NCBI RefSeq assembly: GCF_000732725.1
Contig: NZ_JPNB01000001.1
Span: forward strand, 1,550,001-1,614,000
Length of the DNA stretch: 64,000 nucleotides
Origin: Kineothrix alysoides
GTDB taxonomy: Bacteria > Bacillota > Clostridia > Lachnospirales > Lachnospiraceae
Reading direction: 5' to 3'
Of the stretch, positions 41,718 through 63,340 are shown one piece after another. The notes below the pieces were generated by a model that made no database searches, was not told the DNA's origin, and worked only from the letters and a program-made list of their open reading frames with translations. A program made the position numbers and the translations under genes. Within the stretch, counting starts at the first letter, position 1, and each line of letters begins with the position of its first letter.

Positions 41718-43163
41718 CTATCCTATCAGCCAATCATACATTTCCTGATATTTTTTCGCAGATACATGCCAAGAGAAATCTGCCGCCATTCCTCTGTCGA
41801 TAATCTTATTCCACTCCCGCTTCTTATCATAATAAATATGCTCCGCATAACGAATCGCCGTCAGCATCTCATGAGCGTTGTAGTTAGAAAATGAAAAGCC
41901 GGTTCCCTGGCTCTCATATTCGTTATAAGGCTCTACGGTATCCTTCAGGCCGCCAGTCTCCCTTACAATCGGTACTGTCCCGTAACGAAGCGCCATGAGC
42001 TGACTGAGCCCGCAGGGTTCGAATAAAGATGGCATAAGGAAAGCGTCGCACGCTGAATAAAACTTATGGGACAGCGCCTCCGAGTAAAAAATGTTAGCAG
42101 AAACCTTATTGTTATATTTCCAGTCAAAATGGCGGAACATATTTTCATACTGTTCCTCACCGGTTCCCAATATCACGATTTGAACCGCATCCTGACACAT
42201 TTCTTCCATCATATAGTTGATCAGGTCGAAGCCCTTTTGGTCCGTCAGTCTGGATACGATGCCGATCAGCATCTTCTTATCATCCTGCTCCAAACCAAGC
42301 TCCGCCTGAAGTGCGCGTTTATTCTTGATTTTTTCCTTTCGGAAATTCACCGCATTGTAATTATGTTCAATATATTTATCGGTCTCGGGATTGAAGTCAT
42401 CGTAATCGATGCCGTTTACGATTCCCCGCAGGTCCTTTTCCCTCGCGCGAAGGAGTCCGTCCATACCTTCTCCGTAAAAAGGAGTCTTGATTTCCTCCGC
42501 ATAAGTATCGCTTACCGTAGTTATTGCGTCCGCATACACAATACCTCCCTTTAACAGGTTAGCATCCTTATAGGCTTCCAGCTTATCCGGGGTGAAAAAA
42601 TAATCCGGCAATCCGGTAATGGATTTTACGGTCTTCACATCCCATTTTCCTTGGAACTTCAAATTGTGAATAGTCATTATGGATTTTATTCCGCGGAAGA
42701 ATTCACTCCCCTGAAAACGCTCTCTTAAATATACCGGAACGAGTCCCGTCTGCCAGTCGTGGCAATGAATCACATCCGGCCTGAAATCGATAAGCGCAAG
42801 AGCAGATAACGCCGCCTTGGAGAAAAAGGAAAACTTGGTGACTTCTTCCAAAACATTATCACTATATGGCTTAAATCCTGAAAACATAGACTCGTTATCG
42901 ATGAAATAATAGGTTACTCCATCCTCCTTCGCCTCCATGATGCCCACATATTCGTTCTTCCAATTAAAATCCATATGAAAATAGGTTTTAAACGTCATTT
43001 TTTGTTTCATTTCTTCCGTAATACAGCTATATTTGGGAATCATGACCCTGACGTCAAAATACTCTTTATCTATACATTTCGGCAAAGAACCGACTACATC
43101 GGCCAAACCGCCGGTCTTAATGAAGGGCACGCCTTCCGATGCCACAAATAAAATTTTCTTCAT
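41718..43163 (-). CDS. glgA: Glycogen (starch) synthase
   Basis: This GT5 enzyme extends glucan chains from ADP-glucose. The ADP-glucose motif KTGGLADV is at residues 16-24, followed by HCHDWQTGLVPVY and MTIHNLKFQG. The C-terminal GT-B domain contains GIVSRLTDQKGFDL and the donor site FEPCGLSQLMALRYGTVPIVRETGGL. The 481 residues fit. GGAGG lies before the ATG. It is downstream of spo0A, and no other glg gene is nearby. Confidence 0.94.
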   Translation of the reverse strand: MKKILFVASEGVPFIKTGGLADVVGSLPKCIDKEYFDVRVMIPKYSCITEEMKQKMTFKTYFHMDFNWKNEYVGIMEAKEDGVTYYFIDNESMFSGFKPYSDNVLEEVTKFSFFSKAALSALALIDFRPDVIHCHDWQTGLVPVYLRERFQGSEFFRGIKSIMTIHNLKFQGKWDVKTVKSITGLPDYFFTPDKLEAYKDANLLKGGIVYADAITTVSDTYAEEIKTPFYGEGMDGLLRAREKDLRGIVNGIDYDDFNPETDKYIEHNYNAVNFRKEKIKNKRALQAELGLEQDDKKMLIGIVSRLTDQKGFDLINYMMEEMCQDAVQIVILGTGEEQYENMFRHFDWKYNNKVSANIFYSEALSHKFYSACDAFLMPSLFEPCGLSQLMALRYGTVPIVRETGGLKDTVEPYNEYESQGTGFSFSNYNAHEMLTAIRYAEHIYYDKKREWNKIIDRGMAADFSWHVSAKKYQEMYDWLIG

Positions 43164-43249
43164 AGCCTAACCTCCAATATACTTAGAGTTATTATACATC
43201 ATATCGGAGTGCTTTGAAAGTATTAAAAATGCTAATTTATCCTATTTTA

Positions 43250-43771
43250 TCAGTTTTTGTACTGCAAGCGAATCTTATCCGCGATCAGTGCAATGAACTC
43301 CGAATTAGTCGGTTTTCCCTTGCCCGTATTGATTGTATAGCCGAACAATGCATCCAAGGTCTCCATTCTCCCCCTGCTCCAAGCCACTTCAATAGCGTGT
43401 CTGATCGCTCTTTCCACGCGGCTGGAAGTGGTCTGATATTTTTTCGCAATGGAAGGATAAAGCACTTTGGTGATAGAGTTGAGCATCTCTGTGTCCTCAA
43501 CCGACATCATAATAGCTTCCCTCAAATATTGGTAGCCTTTAATATGGGCCGGAACGCCTATTTCGTGAATCATTTCGGTAACATCCTTCTCCAGATCCCT
43601 CTCCGTATTTATGCTTTTGACAACCGTCTCCTGCCCCGCTATGGAGGAATCCCTATGACCGGACGGTACCGTTATCATAATCTGAAATTCCTTATCCATA
43701 TTCATCAGGTCACCAAGTATTTTGTATACCCTTTCATTATCCTTTGTTGCTGTTAGATTCAGTTGCTCCAT
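43250..43771 (-). CDS. spo0A: Spo0A with most of the receiver domain deleted
   Basis: This is the sporulation master regulator gene at its normal position after spoIVB. The ATG at 43771 has GGAGG 6 bases upstream and gives 173 residues, against about 260-275 for the family. Residues 1-38 align with the start of the receiver ([20 protein letters not shown], compare Bacillus MEKIKVCVADDNRELVSLLS), but the first acidic-pocket Asp is Lys10. Residues 39-62 are an unrelated linker. Residues 63-173 are a complete Spo0A DNA-binding domain ([20 protein letters not shown], recognition helix [32 protein letters not shown]). The phospho-acceptor Asp and the conserved Thr and Lys are missing. There is no room in any frame for them, so it is not a simple frameshift. 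I infer a phosphorylation-independent or crippled regulator. Confidence 0.93.
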
Positions 43772-43852
43772 ATCAAACCTCCGACTTTTTTCTTTGCTAA
43801 TATCTGAAAATCCAATCCAAATGATATTTATTTCCAAATATTGCTAGTGTCT

Positions 43853-43884
43853 ATTATAAAGGAACACTATTTGATGATTCAACA
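43853..43884 (-). promoter_or_regulatory. Promoter of spo0A with 0A-box-like sequence
   Basis: TTGAAT (43882-43877), an 18-base spacer and a perfect TATAAT (43858-43853). TGTTGAA at 43884-43878 overlaps the -35 and is one mismatch from the 0A box TGTCGAA. The promoter argues that the shortened gene is still transcribed. Autoregulation is speculative. Confidence 0.55.
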
Positions 43885-43907
43885 GTAAAGCATCGCACAA
43901 AAGATAG

Positions 43908-43950
43908 AAAAGCTTCCATTTCCGCATATATGTGCGGTCCGGAAGCTTTT
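43908..43950 (-). terminator. Intrinsic terminator of spoIVB
   Basis: AAAAGCTTCC / GGAAGCTTTT (43908-43917 with 43941-43950), with an inner CCGCA/TGCGG stem, lies about 17 bases past the spoIVB stop. Confidence 0.8.
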
Positions 43951-43966
43951 TCATTCCTTATTTTTT

Positions 43967-45268
43967 TCAATGCAGCAGCATATTCTCAATAAAAATGCCG
44001 TATCCGCTGGTCGCGTCCTGAACGAGCACATGGGTTACCGCTCCGATTATTTTTCCATTCTGCACAATGGGTGAGCCACTCATTCCCTGTATGATTCCTC
44101 CTGTTAAAGAAAGCAGCTCCTGATCCGTGATCCGAAGAACGATGCCTCTGTTAATGTTGTCGTTATTCAAATGCACCTCCAGTATCTCTATATCATAATA
44201 CTTTGGCTCTCCTTCAATACTGCAGATAATTTGTGCCGGTCCCTTTTTAATCTCCTGCTTTAAACCGATGGGAAGCTCTCCAAAGGGCACCTGTGCTTTT
44301 AACTGGTCATTACAGTAACCGAATATGCCCTCCGATGTGTTTTCGGTTATCTGCCCTATGATCTTTGAATCATCGTATTCGATATATCCCGTCAACTCCC
44401 CGGGAGAGCCGTTGCTCCCTCTCGTAATGCCCACAATTTCTGTCTGATACAGCCTGCCTTCTTCCAGATTCATGAGCGTGCTCGTATCTACGTCATTTAT
44501 TCCGTGTCCTAATGCTCCGAAGCCGGAACCTTCATTTAAGTAGGTCATCGTTCCTACCCCTTGCGCGTTATCCCTGATCCATACGCCAATTTTATAATCT
44601 CCGGCCTGATTCGTCTCAGGCCTTACCTTCAGCGTGAGTATCTCTTCTTCTCTCTTTACCGTAAGAACCATCTCCTGCCCTTCGGAATGCTTTACCATAT
44701 CCACAAAGGCCGTCTTACTAGTTACCTTCTCCTCATTGACCTGCGTGATATAGTCTCCCGATTGCAAAATATATTGAGAGGGAGAATACTTCTGTCCGTC
44801 CTCCCCGGTGAATTCCCCTATGCCGATTACCAAAACCCCCTCTGTCTTCACATAAATACCGATGGGTATTCCTGCCGGTATTAGCGTCTTATCCTGAATT
44901 ACCTGAATATCTACCGTCTTAAGCGGGATAATTCCAAACAACTTCAAATCCAGTACATATTTATTGATCTCATTGGCTTTAAGGGTTACTGGTTTAGCCA
45001 AATCTATGTGAATACTGTCTCTGGGGATATTGGATGCCGTAAGCCCGCTTACCTCTATGGCGTCCTTATACAGATTTCCCGAAGCGGGAAGCTGTAAATC
45101 CAACGTTTGATCCACGCCGGCTTTTATTTTAATATTGGAAGGCACCATTTTCCATAAAGTAAAATAGCAGGTGCAAATGAGTGCGGCCGTGCTGCAAAAC
45201 AGCGCAAGGTACAGAAATATTCTATAATTACCGATTCTGTCTCTCTTTTTATCTTTTAAGCTCTTCAA
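43967..45268 (-). CDS. spoIVB: SpoIVB serine peptidase
   Basis: Made in the forespore, it cleaves SpoIVFA to trigger sigma-K activation in Bacillus. An N-terminal membrane anchor (about 16-38) is followed by a PDZ domain (about 140-215). The S55 peptidase domain keeps a full triad by spacing with Bacillus: H255 (GALGHGIND), D382 (ITDQELL) and S397 (QGMSGSP). The 433 residues are full length. The start appears to be TTG with AAGGA 9 bases upstream. Its intact state contrasts with the adjacent spo0A. Confidence 0.93.
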   Translation of the reverse strand: MKSLKDKKRDRIGNYRIFLYLALFCSTAALICTCYFTLWKMVPSNIKIKAGVDQTLDLQLPASGNLYKDAIEVSGLTASNIPRDSIHIDLAKPVTLKANEINKYVLDLKLFGIIPLKTVDIQVIQDKTLIPAGIPIGIYVKTEGVLVIGIGEFTGEDGQKYSPSQYILQSGDYITQVNEEKVTSKTAFVDMVKHSEGQEMVLTVKREEEILTLKVRPETNQAGDYKIGVWIRDNAQGVGTMTYLNEGSGFGALGHGINDVDTSTLMNLEEGRLYQTEIVGITRGSNGSPGELTGYIEYDDSKIIGQITENTSEGIFGYCNDQLKAQVPFGELPIGLKQEIKKGPAQIICSIEGEPKYYDIEILEVHLNNDNINRGIVLRITDQELLSLTGGIIQGMSGSPIVQNGKIIGAVTHVLVQDATSGYGIFIENMLLH

Positions 45269-45323
45269 GTCCTCACATCCTTTCGTCGTTCGCAGCCAAA
45301 CGATAAATGATTTCTAAACAAAC

Positions 45324-45379
45324 GAGGGATGTATCCTATATGAAATTCCTTCCGAAATTCCACATGACATACATCCCTC
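45324..45379. terminator. Large hairpin after recN
   Basis: GAGGGATGTAT (45324-45334) and ATACATCCCTC (45369-45379) form an 11-bp stem about 30 bases past the recN stop. The 34-base loop contains GAAATTCC twice as a direct repeat. The T-run is poor, so it may end recN transcription or act as another structure. Confidence 0.5.
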
Positions 45380-45409
45380 TTAGTATGTGATAAACTTGCA
45401 CATTTTACT

Positions 45410-59625: not shown

Positions 59626-60297
59626 TTATTCGGATTTCATTTTGATTATTTTAATTTTATGTGACTCTATATCAAATAATGCCACAATTGCTTCAGTAAT
59701 ATTTTTCCTTACTTCAGGTTTGTCACCTCCCTGAACTACGACTACCACGCCTTCTATTTCGGGCTGCAAGGTTTTCACCACATAGGGTGTGCTGCTTCCG
59801 TCACTTTCTTTCACATATACCGTTTCTTCCTGAATGTCAGATTCTTCTATGTTTCTGCTTCCGCCCCCCGCATCGCTTTCCGCCGTAGTGCTCTTCGTCT
59901 CAGGAATATCCTTCTCTACGACAGCCTCTTTCGAAGTACCCGCCGTTATCGCTACCTTTACTTTTCCAGCCCCCTCCATTGAGGAAATTACCTGTTCTAA
60001 TTTATTCTCCATATATTGCTCATATGCCTCGGCGTCTCCATTTATGGATGCCGGGGCATATATTTCTTCGCTGTTTTTATTTTCTTCCGAGCCCGCATTC
60101 TGCGTTATTTTCATTTTATCCGAATCCATGCTCCATATTCCGGAGTCCTTAGAACTTTTTTCCGAGGTCTGGGAAGTGGGAAGTGCAATGATGATGAGCA
60201 GTATTCCTACAAGGATGAAAATAACGAATTGATCCTTTCCCGGCTTTTTTCCTTCTTTAATTTTTTTCCATATGCCAATTTTTTTTTCTTCTTCCAC
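59626..60297 (-). CDS. spoIIIAG: Stage III sporulation protein AG
   Basis: A ring-forming component of the SpoIIIA-SpoIIQ complex. It has a single membrane segment (about 23-40), a linker, and a C-terminal domain (EQYMENKLEQVISSMEGAGKVKVAITAGTSKEAVVEKDIPETKST and the end VVVVVQGGDKPEVRKNITEAIVALFDIESHKIKIIKM). It lies 31 bases before spoIIIAH and is of normal length. Confidence 0.92.
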   Translation of the reverse strand: MEEEKKIGIWKKIKEGKKPGKDQFVIFILVGILLIIIALPTSQTSEKSSKDSGIWSMDSDKMKITQNAGSEENKNSEEIYAPASINGDAEAYEQYMENKLEQVISSMEGAGKVKVAITAGTSKEAVVEKDIPETKSTTAESDAGGGSRNIEESDIQEETVYVKESDGSSTPYVVKTLQPEIEGVVVVVQGGDKPEVRKNITEAIVALFDIESHKIKIIKMKSE

Positions 60298-60977: not shown

Positions 60978-62207
60978 CTACATCCCCTTACCTGTCGTAT
61001 ATGCAACAATCGCTATTGTAATGATAAACAGCGCCACAGATGTAAACGTCGTGCGAAACAGCAATAGACTTCCATCCCCCACCCTGTCTGTACATCCTGT
61101 AATTCTCTTATCGCTTACGATTCCTACTAAGGCCGCACTCCCCTTCATAATGCAAGCTATAACAAGCAGCTTCGCTAAAGGAATAAGGCAAATTGCAAGA
61201 AGAAGAAGCAACATGAGAATGCCGATGCTGTTTTTTATTAATACCGCCGAACCGATGAGCATTTCTGTTACCCCCTCCGCAAGATTCCCGATTCCCGGTA
61301 TAGCAGATACCGCTTTCTTCACTGCGGTCGTCCTGAGAGAATCTATAACAGGTGTTATCATTGATTGGAACAGACTTAATCCTGTGATTGCCCCCATCGC
61401 CACCTTAAGCCCCAGCACAATTCCTTTTTTTAAAAATTCTAACATAAGGGTAAGACGTTCCTCTGCCCATATCCCGTTCATCAGCGCCATCAGCACATAA
61501 CTGTATATGAGAGGCATCATAATACATAACAACAGTTTTTCTACTCCATATACTAAAAATAACGTAAATTGGTAATATGCAGCCGCCGTTGCAGCCCCCG
61601 TCGCCGCTCCGATAGCCATGAAATAAGTAGGAATGAACATCTTGATGAACAACACGATATTTTCCACCGCTTCAGAGGCAATTCCGGCCGCGGCCAAAAA
61701 CGATTTCATCAGCACCGCCATCAGTAATAAATAGAGAAAGTAAAATCCAATATCCGCTATTTGATGGCTTTTAAACATATCTGAGAAGTTGGAAAAAAGC
61801 GCCGAAATAATGCCCAGAATCAGAATGGATACGAAAATATTTCTCATTCCGGACAGTTCATTAAAAAGCATCCCCTTTACTCCATCCCAAAGCAGTTTAA
61901 TCGCATTCAAAATATCTCCCTGCAATATACTGGACAGGACTTCGTGTACATCAAATTCATAATTGGGCAGTATGCGGTCAAGGTTATCTGATATTTCATC
62001 CATTCCGTATTCTCCCCACATATTTGCAAAGTTCACTGTAGCTTCTGCGGCATGGACCGGCTTGTCCATGAAAAAAGAAAGCACTAATACGAGCGCTGCA
62101 CTTAGCAATATTTTCTTCATTCTTATACCCCATTTCCTCTTTGGCGGACTCAAAATCAATAGTTGAAACCGCCTTTCTTTCAACTTTCTCTTCCCCTTTT
62201 CACTCAT
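60978..62207 (-). CDS. spoIIIAE: Stage III sporulation protein AE
   Basis: A polytopic membrane protein of the SpoIIIA channel. About eight hydrophobic segments lie in 409 residues, with the family-like ISALFSNFSDMFKSHQIADIGFYFLYLLLMAVLMKSF. A signal sequence (KKILLSAALVLVLSFFM) is preceded by a 29-residue charged lead. I keep the first ATG because AGGAG is 8 bases upstream and it overlaps the spoIIIAD stop (ATGA). ATG at 62120 is the alternative. Confidence 0.92.
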   Translation of the reverse strand: MSEKGKRKLKERRFQLLILSPPKRKWGIRMKKILLSAALVLVLSFFMDKPVHAAEATVNFANMWGEYGMDEISDNLDRILPNYEFDVHEVLSSILQGDILNAIKLLWDGVKGMLFNELSGMRNIFVSILILGIISALFSNFSDMFKSHQIADIGFYFLYLLLMAVLMKSFLAAAGIASEAVENIVLFIKMFIPTYFMAIGAATGAATAAAYYQFTLFLVYGVEKLLLCIMMPLIYSYVLMALMNGIWAEERLTLMLEFLKKGIVLGLKVAMGAITGLSLFQSMITPVIDSLRTTAVKKAVSAIPGIGNLAEGVTEMLIGSAVLIKNSIGILMLLLLLAICLIPLAKLLVIACIMKGSAALVGIVSDKRITGCTDRVGDGSLLLFRTTFTSVALFIITIAIVAYTTGKGM

Positions 62208-62821: not shown

Positions 62822-63340
62822 TCATATTAGTATAATAGCGACAAGCAGACCGCCCATTACACTTAAACTCATAATTACCTTACTTTTATTTATCATATCT
62901 TCTTCCAGCTTCTTCACCGACAGTTCCAGACGATGTAAATACTGTTCGATTGCTTCCGCCTGCATTTTCCCATCCATATATCCGGCACAATCTCCGAAAT
63001 CCAGGCATACTCGCTTTTCCTCTTCGGACAATACCGCACCTTTTAAACACTTTTTCATGCATTCCTTCCATACTTCAGAAAAAGAACATCCGTTATTTAA
63101 CAGCATTTTTTCATATATTTCTTTAAAAGCCTTTCCGTAAGGCTCTTTTATCCTGCTCCCTATTCTCCGGCAGGCCTCCGGCAAGGGTGCCTTGCTGTAT
63201 GTAATTTCATTTTGCAGCATCTTAAATATCTGTTGTATCTGATATAAGGCATTTAGGTTATCTTTCATCCGGTTCTTAAAAGATAGGCCCAGCCCAAAGC
63301 TTCCGCCCATCAAAAATAAGATTCCTATCAGCCGTAACAT
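62822..63340 (-). CDS. spoIIIAB: Stage III sporulation protein AB
   Basis: An N-terminal membrane segment and a cytosolic helical domain related to GspF (LYQIQQIFKMLQNEITYSKAPLPEACRRI) precede a C-terminal membrane segment (KVIMSLSVMGGLLVAIILI). It has 172 residues. It overlaps spoIIIAA by 13 bases. Confidence 0.92.
   Translation of the reverse strand: MLRLIGILFLMGGSFGLGLSFKNRMKDNLNALYQIQQIFKMLQNEITYSKAPLPEACRRIGSRIKEPYGKAFKEIYEKMLLNNGCSFSEVWKECMKKCLKGAVLSEEEKRVCLDFGDCAGYMDGKMQAEAIEQYLHRLELSVKKLEEDMINKSKVIMSLSVMGGLLVAIILI

Follow-up and report, generated by a model that had tools for sequence, protein, structure and literature searches.

The short spo0A gene and its product

We examined spo0A in the window, the whole 64,000-nucleotide stretch of DNA under analysis. 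The gene lies on the minus strand as one uninterrupted frame of 173 codons plus stop. It begins at an ATG preceded by the ribosome binding site GGAGG, and adjoins spoIVB (TIGR02860), as expected at the native spo0A locus; frame, ribosome binding site and locus are as the original prediction had them. On the other side is a gene whose product we take to be GlgA. The features are as follows.

43250..43771, minus strand, short spo0A coding sequence, 173 aa plus stop (ORF list, Pfam, NCBIfam)
43661..43771, minus strand, N-terminal piece, residues 1-37: relic of receiver beta1-alpha1 (about residues 1-29) and the conserved FQIMITVP (identity, dN/dS)
43601..43660, minus strand, variable linker, residues 38-57 (9% mean pairwise identity; pLDDT below 50 at 36-56)
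43271..43582, minus strand, Spo0A_C DNA-binding domain, residues 64-167 (Pfam, 1fc3/1lq1 matches, alignment)
43778..43782, minus strand, ribosome binding site GGAGG (read from the sequence)
43853..43882, minus strand, spo0A promoter TTGAAT-18-TATAAT (conserved in the genus alignment)
43883..43897, minus strand, conserved element beginning TGCGATG, just upstream of the spo0A -35 (alignment, matrix)
43967..45268, minus strand, spoIVB, the upstream neighbor (TIGR02860, 376.1 bits, cut-off 305.25)
41718..43163, minus strand, glgA, the neighbor used for the tree (presumed name)

A TTG at 43837 might open a longer frame; this start is unlikely, because only 16 bases separate it from the -10 and other genera have a different frame upstream. 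No structural RNA reached Rfam gathering scores in 43000-45400. At the short-form loci mapped outside the window's genus (L112-L129), spoIVB and recN are mostly not beside spo0A and glgA usually is; some of the loci lacking spoIVB have little flanking sequence.

The DNA-binding domain is complete, as had been claimed: Pfam Spo0A_C covers residues 64-167 (E 3.2e-47), and NCBIfam TIGR02875 aligns residues 49-172 with profile positions 135-260 at 205.8 bits, above its cut-off of 200. Neither Pfam nor NCBIfam lists a receiver family in the 173-aa protein, and the only solved structures matched by its sequence are 1fc3 and 1lq1, the same two that its predicted model matches. The acidic pair and GVPAHIKG are 62 residues apart, vs. 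a median of 153 in 74 full-length relatives; about 90 receiver residues are gone, and with them the segment holding the phospho-acceptor Asp and the conserved Thr and Lys. Acidic-pocket position 10, mostly Asp in relatives, is Lys, while Asp11, the second acidic-pocket Asp, is invariant in 55/55 short sequences. The original prediction had read these losses correctly, and the phosphorylatable receiver with phospho-acceptor Asp that defines Spo0A as a two-component response regulator is absent from the short protein. The original prediction had also given about 38 residues as receiver-derived, and here the figure shrinks. An HMM of residues 1-37 does find the starts of full-length receivers, 60 of 75 outscoring the best of 1500 shuffled decoys, but its top matches cover model positions 1-29 or 1-31, so only about 29 residues are clearly of receiver origin.

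AlphaFold2, run with a 55-sequence alignment, modeled the DNA-binding domain mostly with high confidence and residues 12-24 as a helix with low confidence; pLDDT was below 50 at residues 36-56, with block values of 47-64 over residues 1-40. No fold was recognized for the N-terminal piece, either in this model or by Foldseek, whose 7 rows at E <=0.001 all hit the Spo0A DNA-binding domain. A third Spo0A_C gene in another genome (G229 contig 52, L243) has an N-terminus that by eye resembles this piece, which on that evidence may recur as a module.

The genome (4.68 Mb in 3 contigs, listed as 100% complete) holds two Spo0A_C places, the short spo0A and a 132-residue DNA-binding-domain-only paralogue on contig 2, which the original prediction had no way of seeing. 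The original prediction had raised a second full-length spo0A; none was found in this genome, nor was a full-length Spo0A found in the 19 short-form genera described below or in 19 short-form genomes with named contigs (19 of 23 such loci were searched, leaving out L039, L040, L045 and L046). Among the latter genomes, G230 encodes a Spo0A_C-like regulator of 273 aa that does have a receiver but is a distant relative (E 1.8e-20). With the Spo0A receiver of a relative as query, the window's genome gave 30 places at E <=1e-8, and since none exceeds 36% identity no displaced Spo0A receiver is seen there. The best match sits in a 519-aa frame, and two frames of single-receiver size (124 and 129 aa) reach 35% and 33%.

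Distribution, descent and selection

The short form, with the same N-terminus, is found in 16/16 genomes of the window's genus. Among 200 Lachnospiraceae genera (one genome each), 132 gave Spo0A profile matches at E <=1e-40: 111 with a match from profile position 1-5, 19 with the short form only (full-length match in 0/19), and two with contig-end pieces that were dropped (L130 in G152; L131 in G122, which includes receiver). In the 19 short genera the match begins at profile position 114-143 and the frames measure 179-223 aa. In the species-genome collection 23 (L031-L053) of the best 80 of 591 relatives have the short form, a ratio that is not a frequency, the 80 being ranked by likeness to the short protein. 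The short set comprises 55 distinct sequences (L001 is the window gene, and the spo0A of L112 equals that of L045), and since these come from many genomes an assembly error is very unlikely as the source of the deletion. Clade-wide occurrence likewise rules out an allele of one strain; the observation is confirmed as real and is no oddity of a single isolate.

In a tree of the neighbor GlgA, a branch with SH-aLRT 100 separates the 44 short rows from 64 full-length rows, which takes a single change. This tree sampled 43/55 distinct short rows plus L126, and 64/75 full-length rows; ten genus rows were left out by choice, and L003, L123 and 11 full-length rows had no GlgA. The distribution fits a single event of receiver loss on the neighbor-gene tree, which could also reflect transfer of the whole locus, since GlgA is linked to spo0A. 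In a tree of the DNA-binding domain alone (33/55 short, 47/75 full-length and 24/31 paralogue rows, with 3 others) the short rows do not come out as a single group and two changes are needed, the domain being too short.

Several other loci have altered Spo0A genes. Outside the short clade, L101 (CALWLV010000196.1) has beside glgA a 205-aa Spo0A with a half-eroded receiver, and that genome has no other Spo0A_C match; receiver erosion apparently took place here a second time, independently. Extra receiver-eroded copies accompany a full-length Spo0A in the same genomes at L150 (G121) and L151 (G068), and neighboring pairs of Spo0A-like frames with divergent receivers occur on ruminant Lachnospiraceae contigs (L107, L095). 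The short spo0A of L126 (G043) has one in-frame TAG, which may be a sequencing error or mark recent decay in that one species.

Selection differs among the three parts of the protein. Within the genus, median dN/dS is 0.02 for residues 1-37 and 0.46 for the linker (74/120 pairs usable for each), and 0.003 for the DNA-binding domain (20/120 usable, most others having saturated dS). Over all 1485 pairs, where dS is near saturation, the figures are 0.125 (248 usable), 1.16 (492) and 0.051 (173). Mean pairwise identity among 25 representatives is 60% for the N-terminal piece, 9% for the linker and 88% for the DNA-binding domain. These values indicate strong purifying selection on the N-terminal 37 residues and the DNA-binding domain and not on the linker, in line with the well-preserved DNA-binding domain of the original prediction; low dN/dS together with 60% identity argues that the N-terminal piece is not decaying either.

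The paralogue, target promoters and sporulation genes

The second Spo0A_C gene of the genome is placed as follows.

Contig 2, 1722053-1722364 (locus L002 1444-1842), plus strand, DNA-binding-domain-only paralogue (Spo0A_C match)

It is flanked by sugar-nucleotide-type and glycosyltransferase-like genes. The paralogue occurs in 18/19 short-form genera, the exception being G180 (E <=1.2e-43, 63-75% identity to the own-genome copy), in 14/16 genomes of the genus and in 18/19 short-form genomes with named contigs, where G227 has a diverged 119-aa copy. As all these genomes belong to a single clade, the counts do not represent independent events, and a Fisher's test of co-occurrence was set aside on that account. 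The two genus genomes without it, G005 (97% complete) and G014 (81% complete), both keep spoIVA. No full-length genus appears among the paralogue matches listed (E 4.4e-37 or better); weaker genes of this DNA-binding-domain-only type may exist in full-length genomes. In the DNA-binding-domain tree the paralogues are one clade (24/24, support 100/100) on a long branch. Glycosyltransferase-like genes lie near 16/18 copies and sugar-nucleotide-type genes near 10/18, these neighbor names being presumed ones read off the sequences. In some species of the genus there are also small Spo0A_C-like frames (114-155 aa; L238, L239, L240, L241, L242), two or three together, a type with no match in the window's genome.

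Residues 210-221 (B. subtilis numbering), the Spo0A recognition helix, are invariant in 55/55 short sequences and in 71/71 full-length ones save for one residue (219) in one row, the full-length set leaving out L107, L095, L098 and L110. The paralogues show S210Q (29/31), R211K (29/31) and H218N (31/31). Elsewhere in the DNA-binding domain short and full-length proteins differ most clearly at 178 and 230, and also at 232, 234 and 240-242, the last stretch presumably near the sigma-A-contacting surface.

Regions upstream of spoIIGA (L192-L206, L208-L237) were compared for a sigma-A-like promoter, with a TTGACA-like and a TATAAT-like box and at most one mismatch per box. Such pairs 20-22 bp apart were found at 14/15 genus loci, in 16/18 other short genera and in 11/12 full-length genera, where base shuffles predict 0.55, 0.70 and 0.61; at the ordinary 16-18 bp spacing there were 0, 0 and 0 (0.51, 0.67 and 0.63 expected). 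Allowing two mismatches in all gave 14/15, 17/18 and 12/12 (0.95, 1.11 and 1.07 expected), and under a looser rule the spacing is exactly 21 bp except for two cases at 22. In B. subtilis, long spacing of this sort characterizes the Spo0A-dependent spoIIG promoter. A TGTCG core lies within 80 bp upstream of the pair in 10/14 genus, 15/17 other short and 6/12 full-length cases (1.0, 1.0 and 0.5 expected), mostly 33 or 42-43 bp from it; L195, where a contig end shifts the fixed offset, is left out of this count and scored as a miss in the -35/-10 count. In the window's genome spoIIGA has TGTCGTT as its upstream core, which makes a weak box, and TTTGACAAA overlaps the -35. Upstream of spoIIAA the same genome has TTCGACAAA, a perfect reverse 0A box that most other genus loci lack, and near-matches number 5 in 16 genus regions (1.2 expected). 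We regard these 0A-box-like sequences upstream of early sporulation genes as putative sites. Across the 64-kb window there is no excess of 0A boxes (13 matches vs. 20.9 expected).

Sporulation genes are largely kept. SpoIVA is present in 16/16 genus genomes and in 18/19 short-form genera, G189 (94% complete) being without a match. SpoIIAA was found in 16/16 and SpoIIGA in 15/16 genus genomes, all below curated cut-offs. Fourteen of the 16 SpoIIAA matches cross one stop; since spoIIAA of the window's genome finishes at profile position 99, we read this stop as the natural end of the gene. SpoIIGA was also found in 30/30 further genomes (18 short, 12 full). The window's genome carries spoIIGA-sigE-sigG and spoIIAA-spoIIAB-sigF, and the window itself holds three spoIIIA genes.

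59626..60297, minus strand, spoIIIAG (below curated cut-off)
60978..62207, minus strand, spoIIIAE (below curated cut-off)
62822..63340, minus strand, spoIIIAB (below curated cut-off)

Decay does occur in places: the stop in spo0A of G043, the missing SpoIVA match of G189, and in G180 a SpoIVA gene with an in-frame TAA (contig 55, 65346-66821) together with lack of the paralogue, a hint that loss of the paralogue and loss of sporulation may go together.

For the TGCGATG element of the spo0A promoter, a matrix was built from 24 short-form promoters including that of the window gene, whose score of 24.3 bits is therefore no independent evidence. The matrix finds a site (about 9 bits or more) at 13/14 genus paralogue promoters, but beats shuffles at 0.05 in only 5/17 paralogue promoters from outside the genus. 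These sites hint that some factor may control transcription of both spo0A and the paralogue in the genus. A stricter TGCGATG pattern occurs at 40/55 short and 8/75 full-length spo0A promoters (0.36 and 0.54 expected). As a candidate operator of the short clade alone the element is ruled out, because 13/75 full-length spo0A promoters also score >=10 bits. A further matrix match is at L249 6384 (minus strand, 15.9 bits).

Interpretation and relation to known Spo0A forms

We favor, with a probability of roughly 0.6, the reading that the window gene is an orthologous Spo0A that lost most of its receiver once in a Lachnospiraceae lineage and was kept as a phosphorylation-independent activator of the spo regulon. 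Clade-wide occurrence, purifying selection, an unchanged recognition helix and retention of sporulation genes and spoIIGA promoters make it look like an old, functional and phosphorylation-blind Spo0A, neither a sad67-like allele nor a decaying gene. The original prediction had offered a natural sad67-like allele uncoupled from the phosphorelay: uncoupling from phosphorylation stands, as far as sequence can tell, and the strain-level allele does not, given 16/16 genus genomes and 19/200 genera. Its other suggestion, an early step in the loss of sporulation, falls with the clade-wide form, the single event on the GlgA tree and the persistence of sporulation genes and target promoters. That the protein still works but is controlled in a new way, which the original prediction had also allowed, we consider likely, with the DNA-binding domain so well preserved.

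The short Spo0A would bind its targets whenever present, and since it could do so, control may have moved to the amount of Spo0A, to a partner or self-association of the conserved 37-residue N-terminal piece, and to the paralogue, which may compete or pair with the short Spo0A at 0A boxes. More tentatively, and with somewhat worse than even odds, two Spo0A-type proteins might share the work, one joining the ancestral recognition helix to a receiver relic re-used as an interaction module, the other a bare DNA-binding domain with altered recognition; dosage and cross-talk would then provide control, and the cell would sporulate without a phosphorylated master regulator.

The paralogue could instead have taken over as the sporulation activator, leaving the short Spo0A a vegetative or repressing role. 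Its single clade (24/24, 100/100) and its presence in 14/16 genus genomes, 18/19 short genera and 18/19 named-contig genomes agree with this, as does the in-frame stop in SpoIVA of G180, the sole short genus without it; the spoIIGA promoter pattern, moreover, would look the same were the paralogue the activator, which tempers the favored reading. We nonetheless judge such a takeover unlikely: the recognition helix of the paralogue has changed while the spoIIGA sites stay 0A-like, its branches are longer, it often lies near glycosyltransferase or sugar-nucleotide genes, and G005 and G014 show no paralogue yet keep spoIVA. Quite unlikely, in our view, is a split receiver, in which the beta1-alpha1 relic attaches to another protein, a receiver or a kinase, and a phospho-signal reaches Spo0A in trans. 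The relic is still receiver-like (60/75 full-length above all 1500 decoys), its Asp11 is invariant (55/55) and the N-terminal piece is under purifying selection, but the phosphorylated half of the domain is missing and the genome offers no Spo0A-like orphan receiver, the best candidate being the 36% match in the 519-aa frame.

That the protein is vestigial, a relic in a lineage losing sporulation, seems very improbable. The in-frame stops in G043 spo0A and G180 SpoIVA and the lack of a SpoIVA match in G189 are what such loss would leave. Against it, two of the protein's parts have dN/dS well under 1, the form is fixed across the clade, SpoIVA occurs in 18/19 short genera and SpoIIGA in 18/18 short genera tested, and the target promoters are kept. 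An artefact of assembly or gene calling has a negligible chance, the N-terminal piece being common to 55 distinct short sequences from many genomes. We thus return to the retained, phosphorylation-independent activator: a clade-wide, selected and apparently phosphorylation-blind Spo0A with preserved targets is supported by the sequences.

Retention of regulon and promoters without the phosphorylation domain suggests that the sporulation gate can be rebuilt. How a cell with a phosphorylation-blind Spo0A avoids constant sporulation becomes a testable question, one with a bearing on spore-borne transmission of gut bacteria. It also follows that spo0A in a genome does not imply an upstream phospho-signaling pathway. 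PMC8340488 scores sporulation genes at 30% identity, a rule that need not separate short from full-length spo0A. In PMC6136694 and PMC11210211, Spo0A is made up of a receiver and a DNA-binding domain and acts once phosphorylated, with that phosphorylation treated as the gate to endospore formation. Our search of open-licence papers, with subscription papers and preprints outside its scope, found no description of a natural receiver-less Spo0A.

Compared with Spo0A of B. subtilis and the clostridia (TIGR02875; Spo0A_C, PF08769), the short protein shares the native locus, DNA-binding domain, recognition helix and putative 0A-box targets, and differs in lacking about 90 receiver residues, in place of which it has the conserved 37-residue N-terminal piece and a variable linker. 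The sad67 allele of B. subtilis is a small, laboratory-made internal deletion. Both it and the short Spo0A are receiver deletions that keep the receiver start, and phosphorylation, dispensable in sad67, would be so in the short protein as well; the deletion in the latter is large, arose in nature, has become fixed in a clade and goes together with a paralogue. Constructs of the isolated DNA-binding domain (C. difficile, PMC3485338; structures 1lq1, 1fc3) are equally receiver-free, and the C. difficile domain is described as binding 0A boxes without phosphorylation, but these were truncated in the laboratory and do not have the conserved N-terminal piece. Another parallel, regulation without phospho-Asp, comes from aspartate-less receivers (PMC4395418); those proteins apparently keep the receiver, whereas the short Spo0A has mostly lost it.
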